A stretch of DNA of 64,000 nt, taken from positions 5,040,501 to 5,104,500 of the forward strand of contig NZ_LT629771.1 of assembly GCF_900105175.1 (NCBI RefSeq), read 5' to 3'. The notes under the pieces are model-generated. The model was not told the origin of the DNA, did no database searches, and saw nothing but the letters and a program-made list of their open reading frames with translations. The number at the start of each line of letters is the position of its first letter. Positions within the stretch are counted from its first letter, which is position 1. Both the position numbers and the translations under genes were made by a program. Source of the DNA: Jiangella sp. DSM 45060. Lineage in GTDB: Bacteria > Actinomycetota > Actinomycetes > Jiangellales > Jiangellaceae. Shown here one piece after another: positions 1 through 63,403 of the stretch.

Positions 1-997
1 GGGCGACGATGTCGATGGTGCGCAGCGCGACGGCGGCGCTGGCCGGGTGGCCGCCGAAGGTGATGCCGTGCCGGAACACCCGGCCGTCGAGGGGCTGCAC
101 CACACGGTCGGTGGCGAGGACGGCGCCCATCGGCAGGTAGGCGGCGGTGATGCCCTTGGCGAGCGTGACGAGGTCGGGGGTGACGCCCTCGCGCGCGCTG
201 CCGAACCACTCGCCCAGCCGGCCGCAGCCGGTGATGACCTCGTCGGCGAGCAGCAGGATGCCGTAGCGGTCGGCGATCTCGCGCAGCCCGCGCCAGTAGC
301 CGGGCGGCGGCGTCAGGCAGCCGCCGGCGTTCTGCACCGGCTCGGCGATGATCAGCGCCACCTCGTCCGGTCCGGCCGCGACGACGGCGGCCTCGACCTC
401 GGCCAGCAGCCGGGCGCAGAACGCGGCCGGGTCGGCGCCGTCGGGCGCGCGGAACGCGTTGGTGTTCGACACGTGCGTGACGTCGATGGGTGGCTGGCCG
501 AAGTCGTCCTTGAACCGCGCGACGCCGGTGAACGCCAGCGCGCCGAGCGTCACCCCGTGGTAGGCGATGTCGCGGGCGATGGCCTTGGTGCGCCGCGGCT
601 GGCCGATGGCGAGGTAGTGCTCGCGGACCAGCTTCCACGCCGCCTCGACCGCCTCGGAGCCGCCGTTGGTGAAGAACGCGCGGGTCAGCCCGGGCGGCGC
701 CAGGCCGGTGAGCCGCTCGGCCAGCTCGATGGCCGGCGGATGCGCCGTCGCCCAGTTCGTGTTGAACGGCAGCCGGGTCAGCTGCTCGGTGACGACCGCG
801 CCCATCTCGGCGCCGTACGAGTAACCGAGCTGCGCGCAGAACAGGCTGGACAGCGCGTCGACGTAGCGGCGGCCGCGGGTGTCGAACACGTACGGCCCCT
901 CGCCCCGCTCGAGCACCAGGAGATCGTCGAGCCGCTGCTTGGAGAAGTGCAGCAGCAGGTGGTCGGCAGCCGTGCGCTGCAGTTCGTCGAGTGTCAT
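1..997 (-). CDS. class III PLP aminotransferase (3' end cut by window edge)
   Basis: This is a fold-type I, class III (omega) aminotransferase that would move an amino group from an amine or amino acid to a keto acid in the cytoplasm. About 332 residues are visible and the C-terminus lies outside the window. Seen: an N-terminal GRRYVDALSS segment, the FFTNGGSEAVEAAWK cofactor-phosphate loop, LLLADEVITGCGR carrying the PLP-ring aspartate, and the Schiff-base lysine in TLAKG near residue 281. The ATG overlaps the TGA of the MFS gene upstream by 4 bp (ATGA), so translation is probably coupled. The substrate cannot be read from the sequence; beta-alanine, GABA or diamine-pyruvate transaminases are alternatives. 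Confidence 0.9.
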   Translation of the reverse strand, partial: MTLDELQRTAADHLLLHFSKQRLDDLLVLERGEGPYVFDTRGRRYVDALSSLFCAQLGYSYGAEMGAVVTEQLTRLPFNTNWATAHPPAIELAERLTGLAPPGLTRAFFTNGGSEAVEAAWKLVREHYLAIGQPRRTKAIARDIAYHGVTLGALAFTGVARFKDDFGQPPIDVTHVSNTNAFRAPDGADPAAFCARLLAEVEAAVVAAGPDEVALIIAEPVQNAGGCLTPPPGYWRGLREIADRYGILLLADEVITGCGRLGEWFGSAREGVTPDLVTLAKGITAAYLPMGAVLATDRVVQPLDGRVFRHGITFGGHPASAAVALRTIDIVA

Positions 998-2325
998 GTG
1001 ACCTCACCGCCTCTGTGCTCAGTGTGGCGTACGCGGGTGACGAGGACGGCGGAGGCAGCGACACTCACCAGCGCGACGGCGAAGAGCGCGCGGTAGCCGT
1101 CGAAGAGGTGGATGACAGCGGCGGCCACCGGCGGTGCGATGGTCTGCGGCACGTTGACGGCGACGTTGAACAGCCCGAGGTCCTTGCCGGCGGCCGCTTC
1201 CCGATCCGGCAGCACGTCGATCGCCAGCGCGTTGCCGCAGGCCAGATACAGTCCGCCGGCCAGGCCCTGGACCGCCGCGAACACCACGACGGCCGCCGTC
1301 GTCGCCGAGGCCAGCGGCACCGCCAGCGCGACGCCGAGGATCGCGGCCGCCGCCACCAGGAACACCGTGCGCCGGCCGGAGCGGTCGCTCCACCAGCCGC
1401 CCACGGCGATGCCGACGACCGTCGTCGCGAACCCGAGCACCGTCAGCAGCCCGATCAGCCGGTTGGCGTCGCCGCGACCGAGCCCCACATAGTCCGTCAG
1501 GATGTACAGCTGGTAGGTCAGGATCAGCTGGTACCCGAGCACGAACAGCAGCCGCGACCCGAACACCCGGAGGAAGTCGGCGTGCTCGCGCGGGCGTCGC
1601 CAGAAGCCGCGGAGCAGCTCGGTCCGCCCGCTCCCCTGTTGGGTCGGCTGCGGCCGGTCGACCAGCACGAACACCGCAGCCGCCGCGACCACCGCGAGGC
1701 CCAGCACGGTGTAGGCGACCGGCCGGTGGTCGACCGCCAGCGGACCCGCGAACGCCGTCCCCGCCGCCGCCCCGGCCATGCCGCCGCCGGCCAGCACCGC
1801 CGACGCCCGGCCGCGGCGGGCCGGCGCGACCCGGTCGGCCAACGTCGCCGCCGCCGCGACGTCGGTGCCGTTGAGCGCGAACTGGATGACCACCCAGAAC
1901 ACGCAGATCCACGCGACCGAGCCGAGCCCGCCCAGCCCCAGCAGGAACCCGGCCGCCACGACGGCGCCGCCGAGCAGCCACGGCGCGCGCCGGCCCAGGC
2001 GGCTCCGCGTGCGATCGCTCAGCGCGCCGACCAGCGGCTGCGCCAGGATCGTGAACCCGAACGACACCGACGTGACGATGGCGAGGTTGGTGACCTTGCG
2101 GTCCGGGTCGATCGCCTCGACGTGATTCGGCAGCAGCACCGCCAGCAGCGCCGCGTAGTTGGCGACGACGGCGAACATGACCAGCGCCAGCGACGGCAGC
2201 AGCGCCCGGGCGGGGGCGGGCGTGGCGGCCTGCGCGGCCTGCGCGGCAGCCTGCGGTCGGGCGAGGGAGTCAGGCGCCACCACGTCGGCTCGTCTCGTCG
2301 GGGGTGCGGGGGTCCGGACGATCAT
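994..2325 (-). CDS. MFS transporter
   Basis: A 443-residue major facilitator superfamily permease of the inner membrane. The sequence shows alternating hydrophobic spans starting with SLALVMFAVVANYAALLAVLL, a loop-2/3 type motif (GALSDRTRSRLGRR) between early helices and a second one (GGWWSDRSGRRT) in the C-terminal half, as expected of two six-helix halves. The reading frame stays open 80 codons further upstream, but that part is low-complexity Arg/Pro/Gly and overlaps dispersed repeats, so the ATG at 2325 is chosen. Its stop overlaps the start of the aminotransferase, suggesting that the two form a transport and metabolism pair. The substrate is unknown. Confidence 0.85.
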   Translation of the reverse strand: MIVRTPAPPTRRADVVAPDSLARPQAAAQAAQAATPAPARALLPSLALVMFAVVANYAALLAVLLPNHVEAIDPDRKVTNLAIVTSVSFGFTILAQPLVGALSDRTRSRLGRRAPWLLGGAVVAAGFLLGLGGLGSVAWICVFWVVIQFALNGTDVAAAATLADRVAPARRGRASAVLAGGGMAGAAAGTAFAGPLAVDHRPVAYTVLGLAVVAAAAVFVLVDRPQPTQQGSGRTELLRGFWRRPREHADFLRVFGSRLLFVLGYQLILTYQLYILTDYVGLGRGDANRLIGLLTVLGFATTVVGIAVGGWWSDRSGRRTVFLVAAAAILGVALAVPLASATTAAVVVFAAVQGLAGGLYLACGNALAIDVLPDREAAAGKDLGLFNVAVNVPQTIAPPVAAAVIHLFDGYRALFAVALVSVAASAVLVTRVRHTEHRGGEVT

Positions 2326-2359
2326 GGACGCGGCGGTGCGCAGCCGCAACCCGAACCGG

Positions 2360-2500
2360 CGCCAGCCCGGTTGTCGGCGGCGCCGGTTGGCCGGCGCTGG
2401 CTGGCCTCGTTGGCCCGCGCTGCCTGGCCTCGGTGGCCGGCGCCGCTTGGCCTCGGTGGCCGGCACTGTCTGACCTCGGTGGGCCGGCGCCGAAATCGCG
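2360..2500. repeat. degenerate GGCC-rich short repeats
   Basis: About four imperfect copies of a roughly 25-30 bp motif built on CTGGCCTCGGTGGCCGGCGC lie between the MFS start and the downstream end of the LuxR-type gene. The copies differ by a few bases and no open frame looks coding. The array abuts one copy of the dispersed palindromic element, and it creates a long spurious N-terminal extension of the MFS frame. Confidence 0.6.
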
Positions 2501-2514
2501 CGGCGTGGTACGTA

Positions 2515-2566
2515 GACCCCGCCCGGCCGGGAGGGCCATCCCACCCTACGGGCGGGCACCGACAAC
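2515..2566 (-). repeat. dispersed palindromic element, copy 1
   Basis: Read on the minus strand it begins GTTGTCGGTGCCCGCCCG, then TAGGGTGGG, CCCTCCC and CGGGCGGG. The outer arms CCCGCCCG and CGGGCGGG pair perfectly over 8 bp; the inner GGGTGGG and CCCTCCC pair apart from one central mismatch. It starts 28 nt after the stop codon of the LuxR-type gene that ends at 2594. It has the same polarity to the upstream gene as the other intergenic copies. Confidence 0.8.
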
Positions 2567-2593
2567 GCGCGCCGAGACCGACGTGGGCCGGCG

Positions 2594-5167
2594 TCAGCCG
2601 TCGGGGAGGAGGCCGAGGCGGCGGGCTCGCAGGAGGGCGGCGTCCCGGCCAGTCGCGCCGAGGACCGCGTACAGCGACCGCAGCTCCTCCTCCACCAGGC
2701 TGGGCGCCATGACCAGCGCGTACGAGATGGCGGCCGCGTCCTCGTGCCGGGTGAGCGCTCGCAGCACCGACCGCTGCCGCTCGGTCAGCGTCACCAGCTC
2801 CGCCCGCGCCGGGTACGCCGGCCGAGCCGACAGCACGGCCGGGTCCAACGCGATCCCGGACCGCTTCGCCAGCACGTCGCGCACCCCGTCGGGCAGCAGG
2901 GTGAACGAGCGCAGCGCGCCGGTCCGGGCGGCGAGCGCGGCGGCCCGGCCGAAGGAGTGGTCCGCGGTCCCCGGTGACCCGAGCGCCTCGGCCGCGGCGG
3001 CCTCGATCAGCAGCAGCTCGATCCGGTCCCGCGGCGTCGCCTCCGGCGCCCACGCCGCCGCGCCGGCCGTGTGCCCGGCGCGGTCCGGCTCGCCGCGCAG
3101 GAGGTGGAACCGGGCCAGCGGCACCGCGGTCCAGCCGGCGTCCGGCCCGGCCGCGCGCAGCAGCGTGTCGACGCGGTTCAGCTCGCCCAGGGCGAGCAGG
3201 AGCTCGGCCCGGCACCGGTCGACGATGCGGGCGGCGAGGCCGCCGGCGGGCGCCGAGTTGGTGGCGGCGGATCGCTCGGCGTCGGCGAGGGCCAGCAGCG
3301 GGTCGCCGAAGCTGAGCGCGTACTGGGTCCGCGCGGCGACGGCGAAGGGCCACAGCTCGGCCTGCCCGGTGTCGTCCTCGGCCCGTTCCAGGTGCGCACG
3401 AGCGGCGTCGCCGTCCAGCCGGTCCGTGGCGACGAACGCGGCGGCCAGGTGGGCGGGCAGCCGGACGAGGTACTCCAGCCACCGGGCCGGCGCGGTGTGC
3501 CGCTCGTAGACGTCCAGCCAGTACCGGGCGTCGACGGTCGCGCCGGCGGCCGCGTGCAGCAGCGCGAGGTCGGCGGCGATGTGTGCGGTGACGGGGTGCG
3601 CGGCGACGTCGTGGGCGGCGGCGTAGGCCTGCGTCCCGGCGGCGACGGCGCGCTGCGCGTTCCCGCCGAGCAGCAGCGCCTGGGCGGACTGGTGCAGCGC
3701 CCACGCCCGATGCATCGGCCAGACGTCGCCGTCGCGGCCGGTCAGCTCGCGCTCCAGCCGGGCTGCGCCGGCGGCGGCACGCTCGTAGCGACCGTCCAGG
3801 CGATCGGCGACGATCCCGATCGACAGCAGCTGCAGCTGCCGGTCGCTGGGCCGCCCCGGCGTCATCTCCTCCGCCCGCAGCAGCTGCTCGCCGCCGGCCC
3901 GGAACGCGCTGGCCAGCGCCTGCAGCGTCCGCACTCCCGGCGGGTGCGACGTCAGGATGCGGGCGGCCGCGGCCGGCAGCCGCAGGTCCGGAACGTCGTG
4001 CGGCACCCGCGCGGTCAGCCCGCCGAACGCGGCGACGAGGTCGTCTGACTGCTCGGTGAGCAGCGTCAGCCCGGCCGCGTTCCACACCCGCGCCAGTAAT
4101 GGCCAGTCGGCGGCGGAGCGGGCGTGCCGGGCGGCCGGACCCGGCGCACCGGCGTCGAGCAGCGCACGGGCGTACCGGCGGTGCCAGGCGGCCGGCTGCT
4201 CCGGCTCGGCGGCGGCCAGCTCGGCCACCAGCGCGTCGCGCAGCACCGGCGGCAACGACCAGACGGCTCCCTCGCCGCCGAACGCCGGGTGGTCCACCCG
4301 TCCCGGCCGGGTGGGCCTCGAACCTACCGCCGGCCACTGACAACCGGCCGCGAGCGCCCGCAGCTCCCCCGCCGCCTCGTCCCCGCCGCCGGCGCCGGCG
4401 CCGCCACCGCCACCGTCGCGCGTCACGCCGAACGCCGGGTGGTCCACCCCTCCCGGCCGGGTGGGCCTCGAACCTACCGCCGGCCACTGACAATCAGCCG
4501 CGAGCGCCCGCAGCTCCCCCGCCACCTCGTCCCCGACGCCGGCGGCACGCAGGTGGACGGGGGTGATCGGGTCGGCCAGCGCGAGCCGGAACGCCGCGCC
4601 CCGGACCGCGGAGGGCAGCCCGTCCAGCACGACCGCCCGCACGTAGTCGGCCGCCGCGCGCCGTCCGTCCTCGGCGGTCGGCGCGTCGATCATCAGGCGC
4701 GCCGGGAGCAGCCAGCCGCGCGTGTGCTCGTGGACGGCGGCCGTGCCGCGCTCGCCCCACGCCGCCGCGAACTCGTCCGGCGTTGCGAGCAGCTGCGGGC
4801 CGGTCAGCTGCGTGACCTCCAGCCCGGCCCGCTGAGCGGCGGTGACCAGTGGCAGCGGCCGGCGACCGCACACCACCAGCCGCACATGCGGAGCCCGGGC
4901 GAGGGCGGCGGCGACGGCGTCCGGCTCGGGCAGGTCGTCGCCGCGGTCGACGACGAGGACGGACTCGCCCGCGGCGGCGATCACGCCCGGCAGGCCGACG
5001 GCGTCGTCGATCCAGGTCACGTCGGCACTGTTCAGAGCAAGCCACTGCGCCACCAGCGCGGTCTTGCCGGTCCCGGGCAGCCCGACGATCGCCCGGAGCG
5101 CGGCCGGCCGGTCCAGGCGATCGAGCAGCCGGTCCCGAGGCACCCGGCCGTCCGTGCGTCGTTCCAC
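2594..5167 (-). CDS. large LuxR-type STAND ATPase regulator with in-frame repeat insertions
   Basis: An 857-residue protein laid out like MalT/LuxR-type STAND regulators: N-terminal P-loop GLPGTGKTA (residues 29-37), VLVVDRGDD as Walker B-like segment, a long alpha-helical TPR-like middle, and a C-terminal helix-turn-helix of about 60 residues opening with LTERQRSVLRALTR. The HTH is a divergent version of the LuxR domain. GTG start, with GGGGGA a few bases upstream. Odd: residues about 208-297 hold a direct repeat of about 40 residues (period 50) containing CQWPAVGSRPTRPG, which is the translated dispersed repeat, plus a poly-Gly linker. The inducer and targets are unknown. The next gene upstream is a second regulator of the same architecture. 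Confidence 0.8.
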   Translation of the reverse strand: MERRTDGRVPRDRLLDRLDRPAALRAIVGLPGTGKTALVAQWLALNSADVTWIDDAVGLPGVIAAAGESVLVVDRGDDLPEPDAVAAALARAPHVRLVVCGRRPLPLVTAAQRAGLEVTQLTGPQLLATPDEFAAAWGERGTAAVHEHTRGWLLPARLMIDAPTAEDGRRAAADYVRAVVLDGLPSAVRGAAFRLALADPITPVHLRAAGVGDEVAGELRALAADCQWPAVGSRPTRPGGVDHPAFGVTRDGGGGGAGAGGGDEAAGELRALAAGCQWPAVGSRPTRPGRVDHPAFGGEGAVWSLPPVLRDALVAELAAAEPEQPAAWHRRYARALLDAGAPGPAARHARSAADWPLLARVWNAAGLTLLTEQSDDLVAAFGGLTARVPHDVPDLRLPAAAARILTSHPPGVRTLQALASAFRAGGEQLLRAEEMTPGRPSDRQLQLLSIGIVADRLDGRYERAAAGAARLERELTGRDGDVWPMHRAWALHQSAQALLLGGNAQRAVAAGTQAYAAAHDVAAHPVTAHIAADLALLHAAAGATVDARYWLDVYERHTAPARWLEYLVRLPAHLAAAFVATDRLDGDAARAHLERAEDDTGQAELWPFAVAARTQYALSFGDPLLALADAERSAATNSAPAGGLAARIVDRCRAELLLALGELNRVDTLLRAAGPDAGWTAVPLARFHLLRGEPDRAGHTAGAAAWAPEATPRDRIELLLIEAAAAEALGSPGTADHSFGRAAALAARTGALRSFTLLPDGVRDVLAKRSGIALDPAVLSARPAYPARAELVTLTERQRSVLRALTRHEDAAAISYALVMAPSLVEEELRSLYAVLGATGRDAALLRARRLGLLPDG
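4276..4543 (-). repeat. intragenic tandem duplication (period 150 bp)
   Basis: Segments 4276-4393 and 4426-4543 are near-identical and offset by exactly 150 bp, which is 50 codons, so the LuxR-type frame is kept. Each unit carries one degenerate copy of the dispersed palindromic element (4291-4344 and 4441-4494). On the coding strand these read GTTGTCAGTGGCCGGCGG or the near-identical second copy. The 32 bp between units encode a Gly-rich linker. An element insertion followed by a local duplication explains the arrangement. Confidence 0.85.
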
Positions 5168-5279
5168 CCGTCCCCCGCGCTCGCTGTTCCCGTGCGGGTC
5201 CAGCGCAGCAGAGGACGCGGGGTGGGCCGGGCCCGGTCTCGCGGATATCCCCCCGGTTCTTACCCCCCCGCCGCGACCC

Positions 5280-7814
5280 TCAGAGCAGGCCGCGACGGCG
5301 TGCCTCGGCCACCGCTTCCGCGCGGCCGGAGACGCCGAGCTTGCGGTAGACGGCGCGGCACTGGCTCTTGACGGTGCCCGCGGCCACGCCGAGGCGGCCG
5401 GCGATGACGGACAGCGTGTCGGACGTCGCCAGCTCGGCCAGCACGGCCGACTCGCGCCGCGTCAGCGACACCAGCGCGTCGGGCTCGGGGAACAGCGCCG
5501 GGAAGCGATCGACGTCGGAACGCAGCTCTGGGAGCCCCGCAGCCAGGGTGCGGAAGTCCGAGCGCGGCATCGCGGCGAACGGGCTGCGCAGGCCGGTGTC
5601 GTCGGACAGTGCGACGGCGTCGGCGAAGGCCCGCGCGGCGGCGGCCGGGTCGCCGGAGCGCAGCCGCGCGGACGCGGCGATCAGGGACAGGTGCAGGCGG
5701 TCGCGCGGGGTGCCGCGGTGCTCGTGCTCGGGCGCGGCGGTGATGGCCAGCGCGCGGGCGTGGTCGCCGTCCAGCAGCAGGCCGCGGGCCTTGGCGACGG
5801 CCAGCCGCGGGTACGGCCGGATGCGCCGCGACGGGATCAGCCGCCGGGCCTCGGCCGGCCGGCCCGCGGCCAGCAGCAGCTCGGCTCGCTGCGCCGTCAG
5901 CATGGCCCGCATCGCCGCGCCGAGCGGCTTGCGGCTCTTCTCGTCCAGCCCCGACTCCAGCAGCCGCAGCGCCTCGGCCGGCCCGTCGGCGTGCCAGCGC
6001 TGCAGCGTCCGGGCGTGCAGCACTATCGGCCACCACTCCATCGTCGGCCAGTGCGGCAGCACCTGCGCGAGCGCGTCGGCGGCGGCGTCCGGACGGTGGT
6101 CCTCGAGGTGCACGTACGCGGCGCCGACGTGCTTGGGGATGGCGTAGAAGCCGGCGTTGAAAAACCGCGGCAGGCCCGGCTCGACCAGCTCGGCCAGCGC
6201 CGCGCGGGCCAGCGTGACGCGCCCGGCGGTGGCGTGCGCGAGCACCGTCAGCGACTCCGGGTGCAGCGCGCCGCTGCCGCGGACGGTCCCGGCCGGCCGG
6301 GCGGCCAGCGCGCGGACGGCGTCGTCGACGCGGTCGAGCAGCAGGTGCGTCGTCGCGGTCTGGGTGACGATGAGCGGACGCAGGTGGTCCAGCTCGCCGG
6401 TGGGGTCGGCGGCCCGCGGCAGCATGCCGTGCAGACGGCGCAGCGCCGGCTGCACCAGCTCGTCGCGGCCGGCGAAGCGCAGCCCGAGCGTGAGCATTCC
6501 CTGGATCCACACGTGGTCGACGCTGACTCGGCCGTGCCTGGACAGCCGCTGCCACTCCGCCGTCGCGACCCCCGCGGTGAGCATCCGGACCGCCTTCGCG
6601 ACGTCGCCGACCGCGTAGTGCGCCACGCCGACGAACAGCGCCAGCAGCGGCTGCGCCCGGAGCACCTGCCGGGGCACGTCGGCGCGGCGCACCCAGTGCT
6701 TGTCCAGGCCGCCGGCGACCTCGCGGAACGCCTGCCCGAGGTGGGTGCGGGCGCGCTGCCACTCCTGCGCGATGACGGCGGACTCGAACGCGGCCGCGCG
6801 CTCGCCGCGGTCCTCGTACCAGTCGGCCAGCCGGCGGTGCGCGGCACGCAGGCGGTCGTCGTCCAGGCGGCGGCGCAGGGCGTCGCGGACCAACGGCTGC
6901 AGCCGGAACCGCGGCTCGCCCAGGCCGTCCTCCCAGCCGCCCAGCCCGCGGTCCTCGACGGCGGCGAGGATCGGGTGGCCGTCGAGGTCGACGTCGAGCA
7001 GCTCCGCCTGCCGCACGCCGACGCCGTCGACCACGGACAGCAGCACGAGGTCGTCGAAGCCGGGCAGCTGCTCGAGGTCGCCGACGAGCATCCGTTGCAG
7101 CCGCGACAGCTGGTCGTTCTCGCCGGCCGCCGGCCACGGGTGCTCCCGCTGCGGCCGGAGCCCCGCGCGGACGGCGAGCGGCCAGCCGTCGCTGGTCTCG
7201 TGCAGCGCCACGACCTGCTCGGCGGTCAGCGGGCTGCGCAGCTCGGAGGCCAACCGGGTGGACTCGTCGGCGGTGAACGCGAGCGTACGGGGGCCGAGAG
7301 TGACGGCGTCGACGCTCAGCTGCGTCGCGGGATCGGTGAGCTCGCCGTCGCGGCGCGTGCCGACCGCGAGTTGGAGCCGGGCGCTGTGCCGCACCAGCCG
7401 CAGCAGGTCGTGCTCCACCCGCGGGTCGACCTGTTCGGCGGCGTCGACGACCAGCGTCAGCGGCCGGTCCACGGTGTCGAGCAACGGCGGCAGCAGCGTC
7501 GGCAGGTGCCCGACGGCGTCGGCGCCGACCTCCACGCCGGCCAGCCCAGGGTGCACCGTCCCCAGCAGCGCGACCACCCGCGACCAGAACCCCAGCCGCG
7601 TCGCGCACTCGTCGTCGGCCGTGACCCAGACCGTCGCCGACCCGGCCGGACGCTCGTGCGCCCACTCCGCCAGCAGCGCCGTCTTCCCGTAGCCGGCCGG
7701 CGCGCGGACGACCCGCAGCGGCAGCTCGTCGTCGCCGAGCTCGGCCAGCAGGCGCGGCCGGCTCAGGTGGTCGCGCGACAGCCGTGGCACGCCCGCGGTG
7801 CTGCCCGGGCTCAC
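5280..7814 (-). CDS. LuxR-family regulator, MalT-like ATP-dependent type (LAL)
   Basis: An 844-residue regulator. Residues 37-46 hold the P-loop APAGYGKTAL, followed by VDAAEQVDP (Walker B-like), a winged and helical region, a TPR-like middle and a canonical GerE/LuxR helix-turn-helix in the last 60 residues (LTRRESAVLAELA, then VAAGTVKSQCRAVYRKLGV). The GTG start at 7814 overlaps the TGA of the upstream GlxA-like gene (GTGA), so the two regulators are probably co-translated. The frame is open far upstream, but that part is antisense or out of frame to other genes. It likely activates transcription on binding a small inducer plus ATP; the ligand is not visible. Confidence 0.9.
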   Translation of the reverse strand: MSPGSTAGVPRLSRDHLSRPRLLAELGDDELPLRVVRAPAGYGKTALLAEWAHERPAGSATVWVTADDECATRLGFWSRVVALLGTVHPGLAGVEVGADAVGHLPTLLPPLLDTVDRPLTLVVDAAEQVDPRVEHDLLRLVRHSARLQLAVGTRRDGELTDPATQLSVDAVTLGPRTLAFTADESTRLASELRSPLTAEQVVALHETSDGWPLAVRAGLRPQREHPWPAAGENDQLSRLQRMLVGDLEQLPGFDDLVLLSVVDGVGVRQAELLDVDLDGHPILAAVEDRGLGGWEDGLGEPRFRLQPLVRDALRRRLDDDRLRAAHRRLADWYEDRGERAAAFESAVIAQEWQRARTHLGQAFREVAGGLDKHWVRRADVPRQVLRAQPLLALFVGVAHYAVGDVAKAVRMLTAGVATAEWQRLSRHGRVSVDHVWIQGMLTLGLRFAGRDELVQPALRRLHGMLPRAADPTGELDHLRPLIVTQTATTHLLLDRVDDAVRALAARPAGTVRGSGALHPESLTVLAHATAGRVTLARAALAELVEPGLPRFFNAGFYAIPKHVGAAYVHLEDHRPDAAADALAQVLPHWPTMEWWPIVLHARTLQRWHADGPAEALRLLESGLDEKSRKPLGAAMRAMLTAQRAELLLAAGRPAEARRLIPSRRIRPYPRLAVAKARGLLLDGDHARALAITAAPEHEHRGTPRDRLHLSLIAASARLRSGDPAAAARAFADAVALSDDTGLRSPFAAMPRSDFRTLAAGLPELRSDVDRFPALFPEPDALVSLTRRESAVLAELATSDTLSVIAGRLGVAAGTVKSQCRAVYRKLGVSGRAEAVAEARRRGLL

Positions 7815-8791
7815 GCCGGGACCTGCTGGAACGTCCGCCGGTAGCGCAGCGGGCTGGTGCCGAGCAGGCGGGCGAAGTGCTGGCGCAGCGACGCCGACGT
7901 GTGGAAGCCGGCCCGCCGGGCCACCTCCTCGACCGGGAGCGACGTGGTCTCCAGCAGCTCGCGGGCGTGGTCGACGCGCTGGCGGATCAGCCACTGCAGC
8001 GGCGTGGTGCCGCACTCGGCGCGGAACCGGCGGACGAGGGTGCGGGTGCTCATGGCGGCGTGCCGGGCGATGTCGGCGAGCTGGTGGTCGTCGGCGAGGC
8101 TGGCGCGCAGCCAGGCCAGCGTGGGCGCCAGTGCCGACCCGCCGGGATCGGCGGCGGCCGGGAGGTACTGCGCCTGGCCGCCCTCGCGGTGCGGCGGCAT
8201 GACGATGCGCCGGGCGACGTAGCCGGCGGCGGCCGCGCCGTGGTCGCGGCGAACGAGGTGCAGGCACAGGTCCAGCCCGGCGGCGACGCCCGCCGCGGTG
8301 AGCACGTCGCCGTCGTCGACGAACAGCACCGACGGGTCGACGCGCACCAGCGGATACCGCGCGGCGAGCTCGTCGGCGTGCGCCCAGTGCGTGGTGGCGC
8401 GGCGGCCGTCCAGCAGGCCCGCCGCCGCGAGCAGGTAGGCGCCGGTGCAGATGGAGCCGATGCGGGCGCCGCGGGCGTGCGCGGTGCGCAGGGCGGCGAT
8501 GACGTCCGGGGACGGTCCCGCGGCCGACTCCGTCGCCGGCACGATGACGGTGTCGGCGGTCTCGACGACGGCGAGCGGTTCCAGTCCGGCGACGGAGAAC
8601 GCGGCGCCGCCCGACGCCGTCGTGGCCAGCGTCGGCTGCGGCGCCCCGATGCGGACGTCGTACAGCCGGCCGTCGCCGGTCAGCCGCTCGGCGCGGTGCC
8701 CGGCCGCCCGCGCCGTCGCGAACACCTGGAACGGGATGGCCAGCTCGAGCGCCACCACGCCCGGCAATGCGAGCACCACGACCTTGTGCAT
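7811..8791 (-). CDS. GlxA-like AraC regulator with DJ-1/PfpI sensor domain
   Basis: A 326-residue transcriptional regulator. Residues 1-165 form a DJ-1/PfpI (class I glutamine amidotransferase-like) domain starting HKVVVLALPGVVALEL with the nucleophile-elbow segment GSICTGAYLLAAAGLL. Residues about 215-326 are a double AraC HTH (LADIARHAAMSTRTLVRRF and VEEVARRAGFHTSASLRQHF). It lies divergent from a stand-alone DJ-1 family gene, 70 bp away. A TAGATT box 6 nt before the ATG suggests a leaderless mRNA. Its GTGA overlap with the downstream LuxR-type gene implies one operon. Confidence 0.93.
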   Translation of the reverse strand: MHKVVVLALPGVVALELAIPFQVFATARAAGHRAERLTGDGRLYDVRIGAPQPTLATTASGGAAFSVAGLEPLAVVETADTVIVPATESAAGPSPDVIAALRTAHARGARIGSICTGAYLLAAAGLLDGRRATTHWAHADELAARYPLVRVDPSVLFVDDGDVLTAAGVAAGLDLCLHLVRRDHGAAAAGYVARRIVMPPHREGGQAQYLPAAADPGGSALAPTLAWLRASLADDHQLADIARHAAMSTRTLVRRFRAECGTTPLQWLIRQRVDHARELLETTSLPVEEVARRAGFHTSASLRQHFARLLGTSPLRYRRTFQQVPA

Positions 8792-8797
8792 GGCGTG

Positions 8798-8803
8798 AAT
8801 CTA
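8798..8803 (-). promoter_or_regulatory. -10 box of leaderless promoter for the GlxA-like gene
   Basis: TAGATT on the minus strand, followed by 6 nt and then the ATG at 8791. This matches the TAnnnT -10 of actinobacterial housekeeping promoters at leaderless spacing. No clear -35 is seen. Confidence 0.6.
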
Positions 8804-8861
8804 TCGAAGGGTGGCATTCCTGCCGTGGCGGCGGCGCGGCACCGTCGCGAAAACTGGCCGG

Positions 8862-9449
8862 ATGCGGGCAGAGGTGTTGATGTACGACGGCATCGCCGAG
8901 ATGGACGCGCTGCTGACGTTCGACGTGCTGGCGCGCGCCCGGCTGATGGGCGTGGACGTGTCGCCGGTACTGGTGACCCCGGACGGGAGCCCGGAGGTGA
9001 CCGGCTGCTACGGGACGCGGTTCGGCGGGCTGGTCCGCTGGGACCCGTCCCGGGCCGACGCGCTGCTCGTCGCCGGTGGGTGGGACTTCGACGTGATCGA
9101 GGCCAGCTCGCTGCCGGCGCGGCTGCGCTCGTACAAGGAGCAGGCGGGGCCGCGGCTGCTGCTGGGCGGCATCGACTCGGGTGCGGTGCTGTTCGGCGCG
9201 GCCGGCCTCATCGACGGCCGCCCCGCGACGACCTACCGCTTCGACATGGAGTACCTCGCGACGTGGGCCGACGTGATCGACGCCCGCATCGTCGACGACG
9301 GCGACCTCGTGACGTCGGGCAGCGGCTGGCTGGCCGGGCTGGACCTCGGGCTCTACCTGGTGGCCGAGCGGCTGGGTGCGCCGCACGTGGCGGTGGAGAT
9401 CGAGGGCCGCATCGGCCACGACCGCCGCGGCACCGTCTGGCGCCGCTGA
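8862..9449 (+). CDS. DJ-1/PfpI family protein
   Basis: A 195-residue single-domain DJ-1/PfpI protein (RAEVLMYDGIAEMDALL at the N-terminus, ADALLVAGGWDF, then GGIDSGAVLFGAAGLIDGR at the nucleophile elbow). The usual catalytic cysteine position reads Asp-Ser (GIDSG), so classical glyoxalase or protease chemistry is doubtful and isonitrile-hydratase-like or non-catalytic roles are possible. The start at 8862 is chosen because homology begins there; 17 further upstream codons are open. It is divergent from the GlxA-like regulator, whose sensor domain is of the same fold, and is its most likely target. Confidence 0.85.
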   Translation: MRAEVLMYDGIAEMDALLTFDVLARARLMGVDVSPVLVTPDGSPEVTGCYGTRFGGLVRWDPSRADALLVAGGWDFDVIEASSLPARLRSYKEQAGPRLLLGGIDSGAVLFGAAGLIDGRPATTYRFDMEYLATWADVIDARIVDDGDLVTSGSGWLAGLDLGLYLVAERLGAPHVAVEIEGRIGHDRRGTVWRR

Positions 9450-9480
9450 CGCGGACCGCGCCAAGATCGCGTCGCAGCGG

Positions 9481-9486
9481 TACCGT
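9481..9486 (+). promoter_or_regulatory. -10 box of leaderless promoter for the cyclase gene
   Basis: TACCGT followed by CTGTCC and the ATG at 9493. This is the TAnnnT-N6-ATG arrangement expected of a leaderless transcript, and no ribosome binding site is present. Confidence 0.55.
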
Positions 9487-9492
9487 CTGTCC

Positions 9493-10263
9493 ATGTCCGT
9501 TCTGTCCGGCCTCATCGAGGCACTCGTGTCCGGTCGCGTCGAGATCGTCGACCTCACCGCGCCGCTGTCCGATCAGACGCCGATCCTGGAGCTGCCGCCG
9601 GAGTTCGGCCAGACCGCACGGTTCCAACTGGAGGAGATCAGCAGGTACGACGACCGCGGGCCGGCCTGGTACTGGAACAACTTCCGCACCGGCGAGCACA
9701 CAGGCACCCACTTCGACGCGCCCGCCCACTGGGTCACCGGCCAGGACCGGGCCGCCATCGACGCCGTGCCGCTGACGTCGTTCGTGGCGCCGGCCGTGGT
9801 GCTCGACGTGACGGCGGAGGTCGCCGCCGACCCCGACTTCCTCATCGAGATCGATCACCTCCGGGCGTTCGAGGCCGAGCACGGCGCGCTGCCCGACGGC
9901 GGCTGGCTGCTGTGCCGCACGGGCTGGTCCGCCCGCACCACGCAGGCGGAGATGATCAACAACACCGCCACCGGCCCGAGCAGCCCCGGCATGTCGGCCG
10001 AGTGCGCCCGCTGGGTGGCCGAGGAGTCGCCGCTGCAGGGCATCGGGGTCGAGACGGTGGGCACCGACGCGGGCGCCGCGCACTCGTTCGACCCCGCCTT
10101 CCCGTGCCACTCCTACCTGCTGGGCAACGGCAAGTACGGCCTGGCCCAGCTGCAGAACCTCGACCGCCTGCCGCCGACGGGGGCGGTGCTCGTCGCGGCG
10201 CCGCTGCGCATCGTCGGCGGCTCCGGATCGCCGGCCCGCGTGCTGGCGCTCACCGAGCGCTGA
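9493..10263 (+). CDS. cyclase family metal-dependent hydrolase
   Basis: A 256-residue protein of the cyclase / kynurenine formamidase-like family. It carries the signature HTGTHFDAPAHW (His-Gly-Thr-His-x-Asp-x-Pro-x-His), which ligates a divalent metal in this fold, and a C-terminal LPPTGAVLVAAPLRIVGGSG typical of the family. Such enzymes hydrolyse N-formylkynurenine or cyclic amides, lactones and similar bonds; the substrate here is not determined. It ends 7 bp before the ThDP enzyme gene on the same strand, so the two are probably one operon and may act on consecutive intermediates. Confidence 0.9.
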   Translation: MSVLSGLIEALVSGRVEIVDLTAPLSDQTPILELPPEFGQTARFQLEEISRYDDRGPAWYWNNFRTGEHTGTHFDAPAHWVTGQDRAAIDAVPLTSFVAPAVVLDVTAEVAADPDFLIEIDHLRAFEAEHGALPDGGWLLCRTGWSARTTQAEMINNTATGPSSPGMSAECARWVAEESPLQGIGVETVGTDAGAAHSFDPAFPCHSYLLGNGKYGLAQLQNLDRLPPTGAVLVAAPLRIVGGSGSPARVLALTER

Positions 10264-10270
10264 CGCCGCC

Positions 10271-11905
10271 GTGCTCGTCTCCGAGGCGGTCGGACGCGCT
10301 CTCGTCGGCGCCGGCATCGACCACGTCTTCGGCGTCGTCGGGTCCGGGAACTTCCACGTGACCGTCGCGATGTCGGCGGCCGGCGCCCGGTTCGTCGCGG
10401 CCCGGCACGAGGGCGGCGCCGCCACCATGGCCGACGCCTACGCGCGCACGTCGGACCGGCCGGCCGCGCTCAGCGTCCATCAGGGCTGCGGCCTGACGAA
10501 CGCGATGACGGGCATCACGGAGGCCGCGAAGTCGCGCACGCCGCTGGTCGTCGTCGCAGCCGAGGTGACCCAGCCGCGGTCGAACTTCTACGTCGACCAG
10601 GACGCCCTGGCCCGTGCGGTCGGGGCGGTGCCGCTGCGGATCACGTCCGCGCGGACCGCCGCCCAGGAGGCCGTCGAGGCGGTGCGCACGGCCGTGCACG
10701 AGCGCCGCACCGTCGTGCTCAACCTGCCGCTGGAGCTCCAGGCGCTCGACGCGGCGGACACCGAGCCGCCGCCGCTGCCGTCGCCGCCCGCACCGCCGCT
10801 CCCGTCCACCGCCGACGTCGCCCGGCTGACGGCGGCGCTCGAGGACGCCCGGCGGCCGGTGTTCGTGGCCGGGCGGGGCGGCCGGTCCGCGGCGGCGCGG
10901 ACGGCCCTCCTGGCGCTGGCCGAGCAGCACGGCGCACTGCTGGCGACGTCTGCCGTCGCGAAGGGGCTGTTCCACGACGAGCCGTGGTCGCTCGACGTCT
11001 CCGGCGGGTTCTCGTCGCCGCTCGCCGCCGAGCTGATCGCCGGCGCCGACCTCATCGTCGGGTGGGGCTGCGCGCTGAACATGTGGACCATGCGGCACGG
11101 CCGGCTGATCGCGCCCGGCACGACGGTCGTGCAGGTCGACGACACCCCGGAGGCCCTCGGCGCGCACCGTGAGCTCGACTTCGGCGTGCTCGGCGACGTC
11201 GGCGCGACGGCGCGGGCGCTGCGGGCCGCACCGGCCGGAGCCGCCCGCGGGTACCGGACGCCGGAGGTCGCGCAGCGGCTGGCCACGCAGCTGCGCTGGC
11301 GCGACGTCCCGTACGACGACCTCACCGGTGCCGGCCGCATCGACCCGCGCACCCTGACCATCGCGCTGGACGACCTGCTGCCCGCCGAGCGTGTCGTCGG
11401 CGTCGACTCGGGCAATTTCATGGGCTACCCGAGCATGTTCCTCTCCGTTCCCGACGAGCGCGGGTTCTGCTTCACTCAGGCCTTCCAGTCCATCGGCCTC
11501 GGCCTGTCGACGGCCATCGGCGCCGCGCTGGCCCAGCCGGACCGGCTGCCGGTGGCCGCCCTGGGCGACGGCGGCGCGCTGATGATGGCGGCCGAGCTCG
11601 ACACCGTGCGCCGCCTGCGGCTGCCGATGGTCGTCGTGGTCTACAACGACGACGCGTACGGCGCCGAGGTGCACCACTTCGCGCCCACGGGACGCGACCT
11701 CAGCTCGGTGACCTTCCCCGAGACCGACATCGCCGCCATCGCCCGCGGCTACGGCTTCACCGCGACGACCGTCCGCGGGCCCGACGACCTCGCCGGTGTG
11801 CGGCGGTGGCTCGACGGACCCCGCGACACCGCCCTGCTCGTCGACGCCAAGGTCGTGACCACCGAGCCGTCGTGGTGGCTGGAGGAGGCCTTCCGCGGCC
11901 ACTGA
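10271..11905 (+). CDS. thiamine-diphosphate-dependent enzyme (acetolactate synthase / benzoylformate decarboxylase-like)
   Basis: A 544-residue three-domain ThDP enzyme. The PYR domain has the activating glutamate in ARHEGGAATMADAYAR (Glu47). A middle domain follows. The PP domain has the GDG...ND diphosphate/Mg2+ motif (GDGGALMM near residue 431, VVYNDDAYG near 458). GTG start. It would decarboxylate a 2-keto acid and transfer or release the product. Linkage to the cyclase suggests a small catabolic operon. Assignment to acetolactate synthase proper is unlikely: no regulatory subunit gene follows. Confidence 0.88.
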   Translation: MLVSEAVGRALVGAGIDHVFGVVGSGNFHVTVAMSAAGARFVAARHEGGAATMADAYARTSDRPAALSVHQGCGLTNAMTGITEAAKSRTPLVVVAAEVTQPRSNFYVDQDALARAVGAVPLRITSARTAAQEAVEAVRTAVHERRTVVLNLPLELQALDAADTEPPPLPSPPAPPLPSTADVARLTAALEDARRPVFVAGRGGRSAAARTALLALAEQHGALLATSAVAKGLFHDEPWSLDVSGGFSSPLAAELIAGADLIVGWGCALNMWTMRHGRLIAPGTTVVQVDDTPEALGAHRELDFGVLGDVGATARALRAAPAGAARGYRTPEVAQRLATQLRWRDVPYDDLTGAGRIDPRTLTIALDDLLPAERVVGVDSGNFMGYPSMFLSVPDERGFCFTQAFQSIGLGLSTAIGAALAQPDRLPVAALGDGGALMMAAELDTVRRLRLPMVVVVYNDDAYGAEVHHFAPTGRDLSSVTFPETDIAAIARGYGFTATTVRGPDDLAGVRRWLDGPRDTALLVDAKVVTTEPSWWLEEAFRGH

Positions 11906-11910
11906 GCACC

Positions 11911-12831
11911 TCACGGCACGAGGACGATCTTGCCCCGGGTCCGGCCGGCCTCACTGCGGCGGTGGACGCTCGCCAGTTCGCGCTGCGGGACGACCTCGGC
12001 GACGTCCACGGCCAGCTCGCCTGCGTCGATGAGCCCGACGAGCTTGGCCAGCTGCTCGCGGTCGTTCCGGGTGACGAAGTGCACGGCGTCCGTGACGGGC
12101 AGCGGGGTGGCGATCGAGACCGCGACGCCGCCGGCGCGCAACCGGGTGGCCAGCGACGCTGCAGCGTCGGGCGGGATCGCCACGAGGTTGATCACGACGT
12201 CCAGTGAGTCCGGGACGGCCTGCGACGTGTAGTCGACGATCTGGTCCGCGCCTGCCGCGCGGACGGCGTCGGCGCTGCGTGCGCTGGCGGTCGCGATCAC
12301 GTGCGCGCCGGCCGACTTCGCCAGCTGGACGGCGAATCCGCCGACCCCGCCGCCTGCCCCGTTGATGAGGACCCGCTGACCCGGGCGCACGTTCGCGTGG
12401 TCGCATACCGCCTGCCAGGCCGTCAGTCCGGCGACGGGGAGCGCCGCCGCGTCGGTGAGCGGGACGGTCCGTGGCGCCTCGACGATCACGTCGGCCGGTG
12501 CTGCAGCGTACTGAGCGGCCGCACCTCCGGCGTCGACGCGGGCGATCACCCGGTCGCCGGGCGACCAGCCGCCGACGTCGTCGCCGACGCCGACGATCGT
12601 GCCCGCGACATCCCAGCCGAACGTGTAGGGCAGGGTCAGCGGGAACACGTCGCGCACCCGGCCGGACCTGATGGCGGTCTCGGTCGGGTTGAACGCGCTC
12701 GCGGCGACCTGGACGAGCACCTCGTCGCGGCCAGGAGCGGGCACCGGCACGGTCTCGTAGCGGATGGCGCCGGGTTCGCCGTAGTGGTGGATGCGTGCGG
12801 CACGCATCGTTGCGGGGACGGTGGACGCCAT
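11911..12831 (-). CDS. zinc-free medium-chain NADP oxidoreductase (quinone reductase-like)
   Basis: A 306-residue MDR-superfamily enzyme. The N-terminal GroES-like fold starts MRAARIHHYGEPGAIRYE. The Rossmann motif is GAGGGVGGFAVQLAKSAGAHVIA near residue 155. No catalytic zinc cysteine set is seen, which fits the quinone oxidoreductase or enoyl reductase branch rather than alcohol dehydrogenases. It faces the ThDP gene tail-to-tail with 5 bp between stops and is divergent from the AraC regulator at 12949, which probably controls it. A second in-frame ATG lies 8 codons downstream. Confidence 0.9.
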   Translation of the reverse strand: MASTVPATMRAARIHHYGEPGAIRYETVPVPAPGRDEVLVQVAASAFNPTETAIRSGRVRDVFPLTLPYTFGWDVAGTIVGVGDDVGGWSPGDRVIARVDAGGAAAQYAAAPADVIVEAPRTVPLTDAAALPVAGLTAWQAVCDHANVRPGQRVLINGAGGGVGGFAVQLAKSAGAHVIATASARSADAVRAAGADQIVDYTSQAVPDSLDVVINLVAIPPDAAASLATRLRAGGVAVSIATPLPVTDAVHFVTRNDREQLAKLVGLIDAGELAVDVAEVVPQRELASVHRRSEAGRTRGKIVLVP

Positions 12832-12936
12832 GGGGTCGACTCCAGTCAGGCGGGTTCGCGATGGTGTCGACGCTAGGCGCGGCGGTTGAGACTCTCCATG
12901 CCTCCAGCGCGCTACTTTCTACGCGTGCGTCTCAGC

Positions 12937-12942
12937 TAGAGT
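12937..12942 (+). promoter_or_regulatory. -10 box of leaderless promoter for the AraC gene
   Basis: TAGAGT, then GCAACG, then the GTG at 12949. It lies in the 117-bp divergent region shared with the oxidoreductase gene. Confidence 0.55.
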
Positions 12943-12948
12943 GCAACG

Positions 12949-13902
12949 GTGGATGTCCTGGGCGACGTCATCATGAGCGCCCGCGTCGGGCGGCCCCGGT
13001 CGGCGCGCGTGAGCTGGCACGCCCCGTGGGGCCAGCGGTTCCCGTCGGTGCCTGGGTCCGCGGCGTTCCAGGTGCTCCTGCGGGGCTCGGGCTGGCTGAT
13101 CCGTCCCGAGGCCGAAGCCATCCCGCTCGGCGCCGGTGATGTGGTCTTCTCCCCGAACGGCCAGGGCTACGGCATGGCAAGCGATCCGTCGGCACCGCTG
13201 GCCGAGCCGCGGTTCGACCCCCAGCACGTCGCCGACCTCGTCGTCACCGACGCCGTCGGCGACCGGGGCCCTGTCACCGTCACGTTGTCCGGCGGCTACC
13301 AGCTCGACCCCGTGCGCACCCACCCGATGCTCCGCGACCTGCCGGACGTGATCGTCATTCCGTCCCGGGCGGGGCGGCACCCGGAACTGCGGGCGGCGAT
13401 CGACCTGCTCGGGGCCGAGGTCGACGACCCCAGGCCGGGGTCGGTCGCCGTGGTCCCCGGCCTCCTCGACGTCCTGCTGGTGTACGTGCTCCGCGCCTGG
13501 CTCGCCGAGACTCCCGCCCACACGTCCGGCTGGGCGGCGGCCTTGACCGACCCGGGGATCAGCGATGCGCTGCGGGCGCTGCACGAGCAGCCCGCCCATC
13601 CGTGGACCGTGCGAGACCTCGCCGCCCGCGCCCGGATGTCGCGTGCGACCTTCGCCCGCCGATTCACCCAGCTGATCGGGCAGCCGCCACTGCGCTACCT
13701 GACCTGGTGGCGCTTGACCACGGCCGCGCACCTGCTCCGCGACACCGACGACTCGTTGGAACGCATCGCGCGTCGCGTCGGGTACTCGTCGGAGTTCGCC
13801 TTCGCCGCCGCCTTCAAACGCCAGCACGCGGTGCCGCCCGGCCGCTACCGCCGCCGAAGCCGGATCGCCCACCACGGCGCCGGCGCCCCGACCCGCCAAT
13901 GA
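12949..13902 (+). CDS. AraC family regulator with cupin-type N-terminal domain
   Basis: A 317-residue regulator. The N-terminal about 180 residues resemble the cupin_6 effector domain of AraC proteins that control oxidoreductases (WLIRPEAEAIPLGAGDVVFSPNG). The C-terminal double HTH has WTVRDLAARARMSRATFARRF and LERIARRVGYSSEFAFAAAF. GTG start with a leaderless-type -10. Divergent arrangement with the MDR oxidoreductase fits the common pairing of these two families and suggests that it activates that gene in response to a small electrophile or its own product. It is followed by a hairpin terminator. Confidence 0.92.
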   Translation: MDVLGDVIMSARVGRPRSARVSWHAPWGQRFPSVPGSAAFQVLLRGSGWLIRPEAEAIPLGAGDVVFSPNGQGYGMASDPSAPLAEPRFDPQHVADLVVTDAVGDRGPVTVTLSGGYQLDPVRTHPMLRDLPDVIVIPSRAGRHPELRAAIDLLGAEVDDPRPGSVAVVPGLLDVLLVYVLRAWLAETPAHTSGWAAALTDPGISDALRALHEQPAHPWTVRDLAARARMSRATFARRFTQLIGQPPLRYLTWWRLTTAAHLLRDTDDSLERIARRVGYSSEFAFAAAFKRQHAVPPGRYRRRSRIAHHGAGAPTRQ

Positions 13903-14016: not shown

Positions 14017-14109
14017 TCGCTGAAATGAAGTCTACGCGATCGTCTGCGGTGCGCCAAATCGCGAGGACGGCCGCGTCGGGTGTCAGTGGCCGGCGCGAGA
14101 ATGTGCGCC

Positions 14110-18421: not shown

Positions 18422-18506
18422 GCTGGCTGGGTTCGGCCCGAGCCCGCACGTTTCGGCCTGATTCGCTGCGTTCGTCGCGTGTCGCGGCGTTCGCCGGCTG
18501 AGTACG

Positions 18507-18556
18507 GTCCCCGCCCGGCTGGGAGGGCACCCACCCTACTGGCGGGCGCCGACAAC
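18507..18556 (-). repeat. dispersed palindromic element, copy in array unit 1
   Basis: Same element as at 2515, minus-strand polarity, ending (on the plus strand) GCGCCGACAAC. One outer-stem base differs (ACTGGCGGG instead of ACGGGCGGG), shortening the stem. Confidence 0.8.
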
Positions 18557-18759
18557 GTCCGCGCGCCGACGCACCGTCCCGCTCGCCGACGAACCGTCCG
18601 CGAGCCGACGAACCGCCTCCGGCCGACCGTCGCCGTGACCGGCGTCGTCAGGCCCGGCAGGCCGGCACGCCACCTCGGGCAGCACATCGACTCGGGCCGG
18701 CACGTTCGGCCTGATTCGCTGCGTTCGTCGTGTGTCGCGGCGTTCGCCGGCTGAGTACG

Positions 18760-18809
18760 GTCCCCGCCCGGCTGGGAGGGCACCCACCCTACGGGCGGGC
18801 GCCGACAAC
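18760..18809 (-). repeat. dispersed palindromic element, copy in array unit 2
   Basis: Identical to the unit 3 copy over its 50 bp. The 8-bp outer stem CCCGCCCG / CGGGCGGG is intact. Confidence 0.85.
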
Positions 18810-18997
18810 GTTCGCGCGCCGACCCACCGTCCCGCTCGCCGACGCATCGTCCGCCGCGCCGACCGTGGCCCCTGACCGGCGTCGTCGGGTCCGGCAGGCC
18901 AGCACGCCACCTCGGTCCAGCACGTCGGCTCAAGCCGGCACGTTCGGCCTGATTCGCTGCGTTCGTCGTGTGTCGCGGCGTTCGCCGGCTGAGTACG

Positions 18998-19047
18998 GTC
19001 CCCGCCCGGCTGGGAGGGCACCCACCCTACGGGCGGGCGCCGACAAC
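18998..19047 (-). repeat. dispersed palindromic element, copy in array unit 3
   Basis: Lies 75 nt downstream of the Lon-like protease stop codon in the same polarity seen at other genes (the GTTGTCGGCGCC side faces the stop). Confidence 0.85.
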
Positions 19048-25593: not shown

Positions 25594-25680
25594 CGCGCGG
25601 TGACTGTCGGTGCCCGCCCGTAGGGTGGGAAGCCCTCCCAGCCGGGCGGGGTCCCAGCCCACTTTTCGCGCGCGATCACG
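25594..25680 (+). repeat. 87-bp direct repeat containing dispersed palindromic element, first copy
   Basis: Begins CGCGCGGTGACTGTCGGTGC, contains the element core at 25606-25653 (CCCGCCCG TAGGGTGGG AAG CCCTCCC AGC CGGGCGGG) and ends CACTTTTCGCGCGCGATCACG. It is identical to the copy 241 bp to the right. The core starts 31 nt after the NUDIX stop. The hairpin followed closely by CACTTTT could act as a terminator. Confidence 0.9.
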
Positions 25681-25834: not shown

Positions 25835-25921
25835 CGCGCGGTGACTGTCGGTGCCCGCCCGTAGGGTGGGAAGCCCTCCCAGCCGGGCGGGGTCCCAGCC
25901 CACTTTTCGCGCGCGATCACG
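25835..25921 (+). repeat. 87-bp direct repeat containing dispersed palindromic element, second copy
   Basis: Identical to 25594-25680, with the element core at 25847-25894. The two copies share flanks as well as the core, so this pair arose by duplication rather than by two separate insertions. Confidence 0.9.
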
Positions 25922-45299: not shown

Positions 45300-45403
45300 C
45301 GACTGCCGCTCCTTCCTCTGCTCCCCGACGACTGGTCCCATCCCACCACGCGGGTCCGACAGGGTCGCGGACGCGCGCCGGAGGAGGCGACCCCTGGACC
45401 TTG

Positions 45404-45417: not shown

Positions 45418-45455
45418 TAACGTGCGACCCGAGATCACGCCGAGGGAGGACCTGT

Positions 45456-63309: not shown

Positions 63310-63311
63310 GT

Positions 63312-63360
63312 GTCGGTGCCCGCCCGTAGGGTGGGCCGCACCCGGGCCGGGAGGGGTCCA
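63312..63360 (+). repeat. dispersed palindromic element, right-most copy
   Basis: Starts GTCGGTGCCCGCCCG two nt after the amidohydrolase stop; continues TAGGGTGGG then CACCCGGGCCGGGAGGGG. The outer stem has one mismatch, but the inner GGGTG pairs with CACCC. Polarity as in all intergenic copies. Confidence 0.8.
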
Positions 63361-63403
63361 CCTACCACGGCACGGCAGCGGCCGGCTGAGGCTGTCCTGC
63401 TGG

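Follow-up and report, generated by a model that had tools for sequence, protein, structure and literature searches.

A dispersed palindromic repeat of Jiangella inside a regulator gene: evidence for in-frame insertion and tandem duplication, and a likeness to DNA-damage promoters

A short palindromic repeat, dispersed through the genome of Jiangella sp. DSM 45060, is present twice inside a regulator gene, which it appears to have entered in frame and within which it was then probably duplicated. The gene lies on the minus strand (2594..5167) of a stretch of 64,000 nucleotides (contig NZ_LT629771.1, positions 5,040,501 to 5,104,500; hereafter the window, whose numbering is used throughout), and its open reading frame (ORF) encodes 857 amino acids of what marginal domain matches suggest is a divergent LAL/LuxR-type regulator (ATPase). 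The first copy of the repeat in gene order (4426..4544, minus strand; 119 nt) is followed by a second (4276..4394, minus strand), an in-frame tandem duplicate: the two are direct repeats, 96% identical, with starts 150 bp, or 50 codons, apart. Each encodes the peptide CQWPAVGSRPTRPG, and the frame of the host gene is open through both. A 32-nt core of the repeat occurs as two exact copies in the window, compared with none in 100 shuffles. A first-pass annotation of this DNA had described two in-frame copies of the same polarity, 150 bp apart within an intact frame, and had proposed that they arose by insertion and subsequent duplication; the observation is confirmed, and the reading is supported.

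Twelve Jiangella genomes, including the source genome, were searched for the host gene; ten gave a match, and seven congeners possess an orthologue covering most of its length, the most distant of which (L091) is 49% identical. In three of the seven (L088, L089 and L091) the insert is absent and the protein runs straight through the site (LRAAGLL or alike, then W). The remaining four (L085, L086, L087 and L090) carry one insert, as in the first copy; the frame is open in every carrier, and at the DNA level the insert still resembles the dispersed element described below. Two inserts occur solely in DSM 45060 among the eight orthologue rows, the second copy being unique to this strain. This distribution argues for an in-frame insertion and, after it, a tandem duplication that also kept the frame, and the alignment of orthologues, which the annotation had named as a check on its proposal, shows the insertion. 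In a tree of the eight rows rooted at its midpoint the two deepest-branching rows are without the insert, which makes absence the likely earlier state. The mean codon log-odds for host residues 223–300 is −0.07, the level of noncoding DNA, versus 0.41 for the rest of the gene, and the lowest of the 592 other (overlapping) 78-codon stretches scores 0.24; the drop coincides exactly with the insert, and these residues thus bear little resemblance to old coding DNA.

The host protein presumably comprises a P-loop ATPase, a helical repeat region and a C-terminal helix-turn-helix (HTH). The HTH downstream of the repeats, called intact in the annotation, is weaker than that implies: the cut-off of the GerE (LuxR) model (23.5 bits) is passed by orthologue L091 with 30 bits, the other three of four orthologues tested (L120, L088 and L085) falling below it, whereas the window protein gave no Pfam match at E 0.01 and a marginal match to an HTH in the PDB (E 0.098). 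Near the P-loop (amino acids 4–53) a match to the MalT model is weak, far below cut-off. A PDB search returned no usable solved relative, and an AlphaFold2 model built from two sequences is too poor to tell whether the insert forms a surface loop (mean pLDDT, the model's own confidence, 43), with values of ~23–29 and no secondary structure in the insert.

The related intergenic element of which the annotation spoke does exist, with copies at seven sites elsewhere in the window. One (2507..2565, minus strand) has its motif start 29 bp past the stop codon of the host gene; three (18497..18555, 18750..18808 and 18988..19046, all minus strand) form an array between convergent genes; two more (25604..25662 and 25845..25903, both plus strand) form a second array, also between convergent genes; and the last (63310..63368, plus strand), again between convergent genes, starts directly after a stop codon. 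At the site of the two-copy array one copy is present in J. muralis (G009), two in G001 and none in G002 and G006: copy number and presence vary at one intergenic position among closely related species. Twenty-nine loci of the A-type, taken one per locus, share a single common block from ~−4 to ~+58 with sharp edges and unrelated flanks, which gives a unit of ~62 bp.

The pattern TTGTCRGTG-N8-TANNNT has 119 exact matches in the source genome and its reversed form none. Among fetched loci there are likewise 119 motif sites with at most one mismatch; a palindrome follows in 93 and not in 26. The strict combination of motif and palindrome occurs 68 times in the source genome and 36, 21, 19, 9, 5, 3 and 3 times in seven of 11 congeners, the other four having none; it is present in 8 of 12 Jiangella genomes and absent from ten genomes of the five other genera of the order that were searched, and its reversed control is absent from all 22 genomes. 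In a collection of 84,980 species every stretch with the strict pattern (53 of 53) is titled Jiangella, so that the family has so far been found only in this genus. Copies are single in 61 of 96 arrays (counted in fetched stretches rather than in the whole genome) and otherwise form same-strand arrays of two to five at 105–343 bp. The core of the in-gene repeat matches unlinked genomic loci with E values down to 5.6e-10. Motif variants without G at the third position number 18 in the source genome, 13 in G001 and one each in G002, G003 and G009 (reversed control: one match, in G006), and a third repeat class with a base other than C at the fifth motif position beside CCGCCCNTAGNGTGGG, sought with a pattern that excludes both known classes, gave no match. 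An Rfam search of window positions 1–30000 returned nothing but a tRNA. By eye, neither terminal inverted repeats nor a target-site duplication was seen in the listed copies, among which there is no exact pair of empty and filled sites.

Two further observations concern the setting of these copies. The ~18 kb at 45381–63399 have no match longer than 300 bp in the corresponding stretches of G001, G002, G006 and G009, where the flanks are adjacent; this segment is likely a gained island, with the repeat copy at 63310 at its right edge. In the contig of the source genome (G000), positions 1–13,245 and 7,472,689–7,485,957 overlap in direct orientation (~13 kb, 99.2–99.7% identity), which implies that the circular chromosome is probably untrimmed and that counts near its ends are doubled.

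The element looks like a DNA-damage promoter, a likeness that the annotation missed. The part of PMC5656591 available to us gives the consensus of LexA-independent DNA-damage (RecA-NDp) promoters as tTGTCRgtg-8 nt-TannnT and ties genes with this motif to pafBC; PMC11804915, also available in part, describes a PafBC-specific −26 promoter motif. The repeat motif, TTGTCRGTG-N8-TANNNT, equals the RecA-NDp consensus at the fixed positions and in the 8-nt spacer. We take this consensus and the −26 motif of PafBC to be the same. On the coding strand both in-gene copies read TTGTCAGTG-GCCGGCGG-TAGGTT, then CGAGGC, then the palindrome CCACCCGGCCGGG(A/C)GGG. In the first copy the RecA-NDp/PafBC-type motif (TTGTCAGTG-N8-TAGGTT; 4471..4493, minus strand) is in sense to the host gene, and the palindrome (CCACCCGGCCGGGAGGGG; 4447..4464, minus strand) starts where start-site geometry predicts transcription to begin; in the second copy the same motif lies at 4321..4343 and the palindrome (CCACCCGGCCGGGACGGG) at 4297..4314, both on the minus strand. 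All 12 motif positions are kept in the orthologues L086 (G001) and L087 (G009), and the motif is worn in L085 and L090.

Without a palindrome, the motif precedes recA, uvrB and a gene that we take to be radA-like in the source genome, with the ATG 30–31 nt from the motif start. Start codons were examined for 13 of the 26 sites without palindrome, and eight of the 13 were tested against Pfam. All eight have a supported gene, with the ATG at 29–31 in seven and at 25 in one (three of the eight show one mismatch to the motif); the best starts for the remaining five lie at 27, 28, 29, 32 and 153. In the repeats it is the palindrome that begins 28–31 nt from the motif start, and at 29–30 in 73 of 76 sites of a collection found by the palindrome only, which holds 76 of the genome's 80 sites, the missing four being contig-end duplicates. 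The palindrome would begin at the expected +1, at the start-site distance seen for recA and uvrB. At least 10 of the 12 motif positions are present in 62 of these 76 sites; the other 14 have a GTTCACGC box in the same place. Across 12 C-type arrays found by their palindrome, no variation is seen at nine core motif positions, compared with agreement in 66% of pairs at the 11 free ones, a contrast matched in extremity by 7 of 100,000 random choices of positions. The source genome also contains an adjacent pafB-pafC-like pair (Pfam WYL/WCX, then HTH_PafC with 127.8 bits in the second protein); the PafB candidate received no name from NCBIfam.

A separate one-mismatch match to the damage promoter lies in the window at 14080–14110 (plus strand), with an ATG 30 nt downstream, before a gene for a GNAT acetyltransferase. 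It adjoins a tRNA gene (13943–14016), and there are similar sites in G006 and G009.

A minority of repeats, the E-type, have the GTTCACGC box in place of the damage motif, usually with a second such repeat after it, ahead of the same CCCGCCCGTAGGGTGGG. They make up 14 of the 76 sites found by the palindrome, and 18 copies in a separate typed count. Directly before the shared −10 region stands GTTCACGCCTG-GTTCACGCGGC, that is, two 11-nt GTTCAC direct repeats, the second of which is degenerate in 2 of 14 sites. Loci with a box of the GTTCACGC type and the same −10 and palindrome are L181, L182, L184, L186, L187, L188 and L190. The Streptomyces PHO box, as given in the part of PMC4415409 available to us, is GTTCACC in two 11-nt direct repeats, an arrangement that the E-type shares. 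Five of the 21 genomic sites with the GTTCAC direct repeat lie outside E-type copies and none of these clearly at a pho gene, which keeps the PHO-box label tentative.

The host gene is not the only protein-coding gene to contain the repeat. As judged with a codon-usage gene caller trained on 22 long ORFs of the window, 11 of the 96 arrays, host gene included, lie in open frames called as genes (13 before L041 and L188 were dropped for noncoding codon scores), to which we add L027, whose hairpin variant fell outside the array-search pattern. The annotation's suggestion that the repeat can spread into proteins is right and, with about ten such genes besides the host, more general than it had claimed, with the provisos that L021, which lies near a start codon, is a doubtful call and that L011 and L022 score as coding over the called gene alone and not over the entire stop-to-stop ORF. 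In three cases the element splits a Pfam domain within an open ORF. L195 matches LysR_substrate positions 2–88, then comes the element, then positions 72–208, the two parts overlapping by 17 positions. In L191 Exo_endo_phos positions 1–84 and 115–225 are separated by two elements, and the halves alone are below cut-off whereas the whole protein is above it. In L193 (2978–4126, minus strand), a WYL-domain regulator, WYL positions 1–55 of 70 end 12 residues before an in-frame antisense element; the WYL domain is the family to which PafBC itself belongs. Further hosts are a multicopper oxidase (L052), an M14 peptidase (L047), a histidine kinase (L027), L014 and L011, together with what we take to be an E2-like linker protein (L194) and a kinase-like protein (L022). 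Four hosts carry the element in frame in a second species too: the LysR gene in J. rhizosphaerae, and the Exo_endo_phos, E2-like and L022-like genes in J. muralis. Between species the E2-like gene has two copies here versus one there, and the spacing in the Exo_endo_phos gene differs (38 and 52 codons); L132, whose frame had been misread, is excluded from this comparison. Over 59 nt, four of six frames are open in both in-gene copies of the window, and three to six of six in all 93 palindrome-bearing sites.

Taken together, it is probable that the ~62-bp repeat was inserted in frame into the regulator gene before several Jiangella species split and was tandem-duplicated in DSM 45060, and that its unit is a portable promoter or derives from one. 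The history would have run as follows: the inserted copy became worn in some species, and a unit of 150 bp (50 codons) was later duplicated in tandem in DSM 45060. In such a promoter an activator site, of the DNA-damage type in most copies but PHO-box-like in a minority of them, would be followed by a −10 element and then by a palindrome that begins at +1. This account builds on the dispersed family with its sharp edges, the absence of the insert from three orthologues, the open frame and the further in-frame copies. That the protein stays readable after insertion can be understood from the four of six core frames without a stop and from a site that accepts changes of length. Since both in-gene copies are sense-oriented, transcription could be initiated within the gene upon DNA damage.

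A broader reading, which we offer tentatively and rate somewhat below even chances, is that the family may be a self-spreading, stress-switched promoter cassette that combines a −10 element and a hairpin at +1 with an exchangeable activator site, either PafBC-type or PHO-box-like, and that seeds damage- or starvation-inducible transcription across the genome. If so, antisense transcription into convergent genes would follow, as would internal sense or antisense promoters in proteins whose frames are left open; and a functional promoter layout would mean that a single short repeat both rewires stress transcription and edits proteins. A literature search of limited reach recognised no published account of a repeated damage promoter or of such repeats in Jiangella. 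What appears new is the arrangement as a promoter, with activator sites of two kinds, and the family should be testable by a single damage-induced RNA experiment, for which the species of the genus, ranging from 0 to 68 strict copies, offer a ready-made series.

Several points weigh against the insertion history and its promoter component or limit the evidence for them. On the midpoint-rooted tree of eight rows the history of the insert needs two changes, and a single origin is recovered in 25% of bootstraps. The two rare codons TGT and GTA, which are part of the motif, are identical in all five carriers, compared with 2 of 38 A/T-ending codons elsewhere, a small sample that is no more than suggestive of a constraint at the DNA level on the motif inside the host gene. 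The spacings between copies favour insertion into genes, being multiples of three in 6 of 6 in-gene cases and in 17 of 44 intergenic ones (p 0.006), but the test is partly circular because a broken frame would not score as in-gene; and the second-species loci, having been chosen for containing the element, cannot show absence. The genomic motif matches are mostly members of a single family and not independent. The activator may be other than PafBC, since ClgR is cited in the available part of PMC5656591 as recognising the same motif. The RNA of the in-gene copies folds no better than shuffles (z 0.07 and 1.11). Finally, convergent genes flank 39 of the 82 intergenic arrays (38 of 80 without L179, which sits in the doubled contig end), versus 21–22% expected from relatives' loci (p about 1e-7). 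The next gene is co-directional for 24 of the 93 palindrome-bearing sites, and within 100 bp in 4 of the 24; few repeats can serve a gene directly, unlike ordinary gene promoters. At one locus (L009, 2056–2500), a four-copy array, the first copy seems to supply the stop of the upstream gene (the TAA of TAAAGT).

The excess at convergent gene ends bears directly on two other explanations. Repetitive extragenic palindromic (REP) elements with RAYT transposases are short palindromes at gene ends, in arrays, and the Jiangella repeat could be a plain REP-like sequence moved by TnpA-REP (RAYT), its promoter match fortuitous and the GTAG before its hairpin the RAYT tetranucleotide. The palindrome, the GTAG that precedes it in most of the copies listed, and the convergent placement fit this explanation, which we nevertheless regard as unlikely. 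The Y1 transposase (PF01797) was not found in the source genome by a search that was positive in 5 of 14 control genomes, a result on which a REP/RAYT origin was rejected; GTAG is not kept (CTAG, ATAG, GTAA and CTAC occur), whereas the TA and last T of the promoter motif are, with one exception seen (L023, TG); and the motif fits the damage-promoter consensus at the fixed positions and at the right start-site distance.

It is similarly improbable that the repeats are bidirectional terminators or RNA-stabilising hairpins for convergent genes, with the in-gene copies accidental. The same 39 of 82 arrays could be read this way, and the typed A-type consensus forms a strong GC-rich hairpin (−44.2 kcal/mol), albeit one that outperforms shuffled sequences only modestly (z −1.61, with 14 of 200 doing as well). 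With no terminator scan run, the listed copies show no T-run immediately after the palindrome, with the caveat that the pair at 25604 and 25845 has TTTT ~10 nt past it; and the conserved unit starts ~30 nt ahead of the palindrome, with a site of activator type that comes in two kinds, a feature at odds with a terminator or hairpin alone. That the second in-gene copy is an assembly error is very improbable: the same assembly does have the untrimmed overlap of its contig ends, but the two copies differ from each other, and further genes, both in this genome and in other species, have the element two or three times in frame. Least credible is a low-complexity linker grown by slippage and resembling the intergenic element by convergence; although the surrounding linker is rich in Gly and Ala and varies from one orthologue to another, the matches of the core to unlinked loci speak strongly against it, as do the complete 12-position motif of L086 and L087 and the absence of the block from three orthologues.

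In addition to the PHO box, four known systems can be set beside the Jiangella repeat. With REP elements the Jiangella repeats share short palindromes at gene ends, in arrays; unlike them, they are found in a genome without a detected Y1 transposase and do not keep the GTAG/GGAG tetranucleotide of the hairpin foot. Correia elements of Neisseria, promoter-bearing miniature inverted-repeat transposable elements (MITEs) according to the part of PMC10969869 available to us, are likewise small dispersed repeats carrying promoter sequences. Unlike these, the putative Jiangella promoter is of a stress-activated type, its copies showed by eye neither terminal inverted repeats nor target duplication, and it often lies 3' of genes. 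RecA-NDp/PafBC promoters, as far as the sources available in part describe them, are matched in fixed motif positions, 8-nt spacer and the start-site distance of recA and uvrB; unlike them, the Jiangella unit is repeated, has a palindrome at +1, is seldom close before a gene and sometimes lies in genes, in either direction.

The fourth comparison, with Rickettsia palindromic elements (RPEs), had been drawn in the first-pass annotation. It is apt as to behaviour: in the same part of PMC10969869 these are one-genus dispersed palindromic repeats, found in frame in unrelated genes and tolerated by the proteins, singled out for the frequency of such fusions, which occur with other MITEs too. It fails as to length, since they measure ~150 bp and the Jiangella unit ~62 bp. 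The Jiangella repeat differs further in carrying a regulatory promoter motif, in its high-GC actinobacterial host and in its in-gene tandems in several genes. It behaves like the RPEs without being a member, a likeness judged on behaviour, no RPE sequence having been compared. As a second and apparently unrelated RPE-like case, from a high-GC actinobacterium and with clear orthologues from before and after the insertion, it would show that short repeats create protein insertions more widely.

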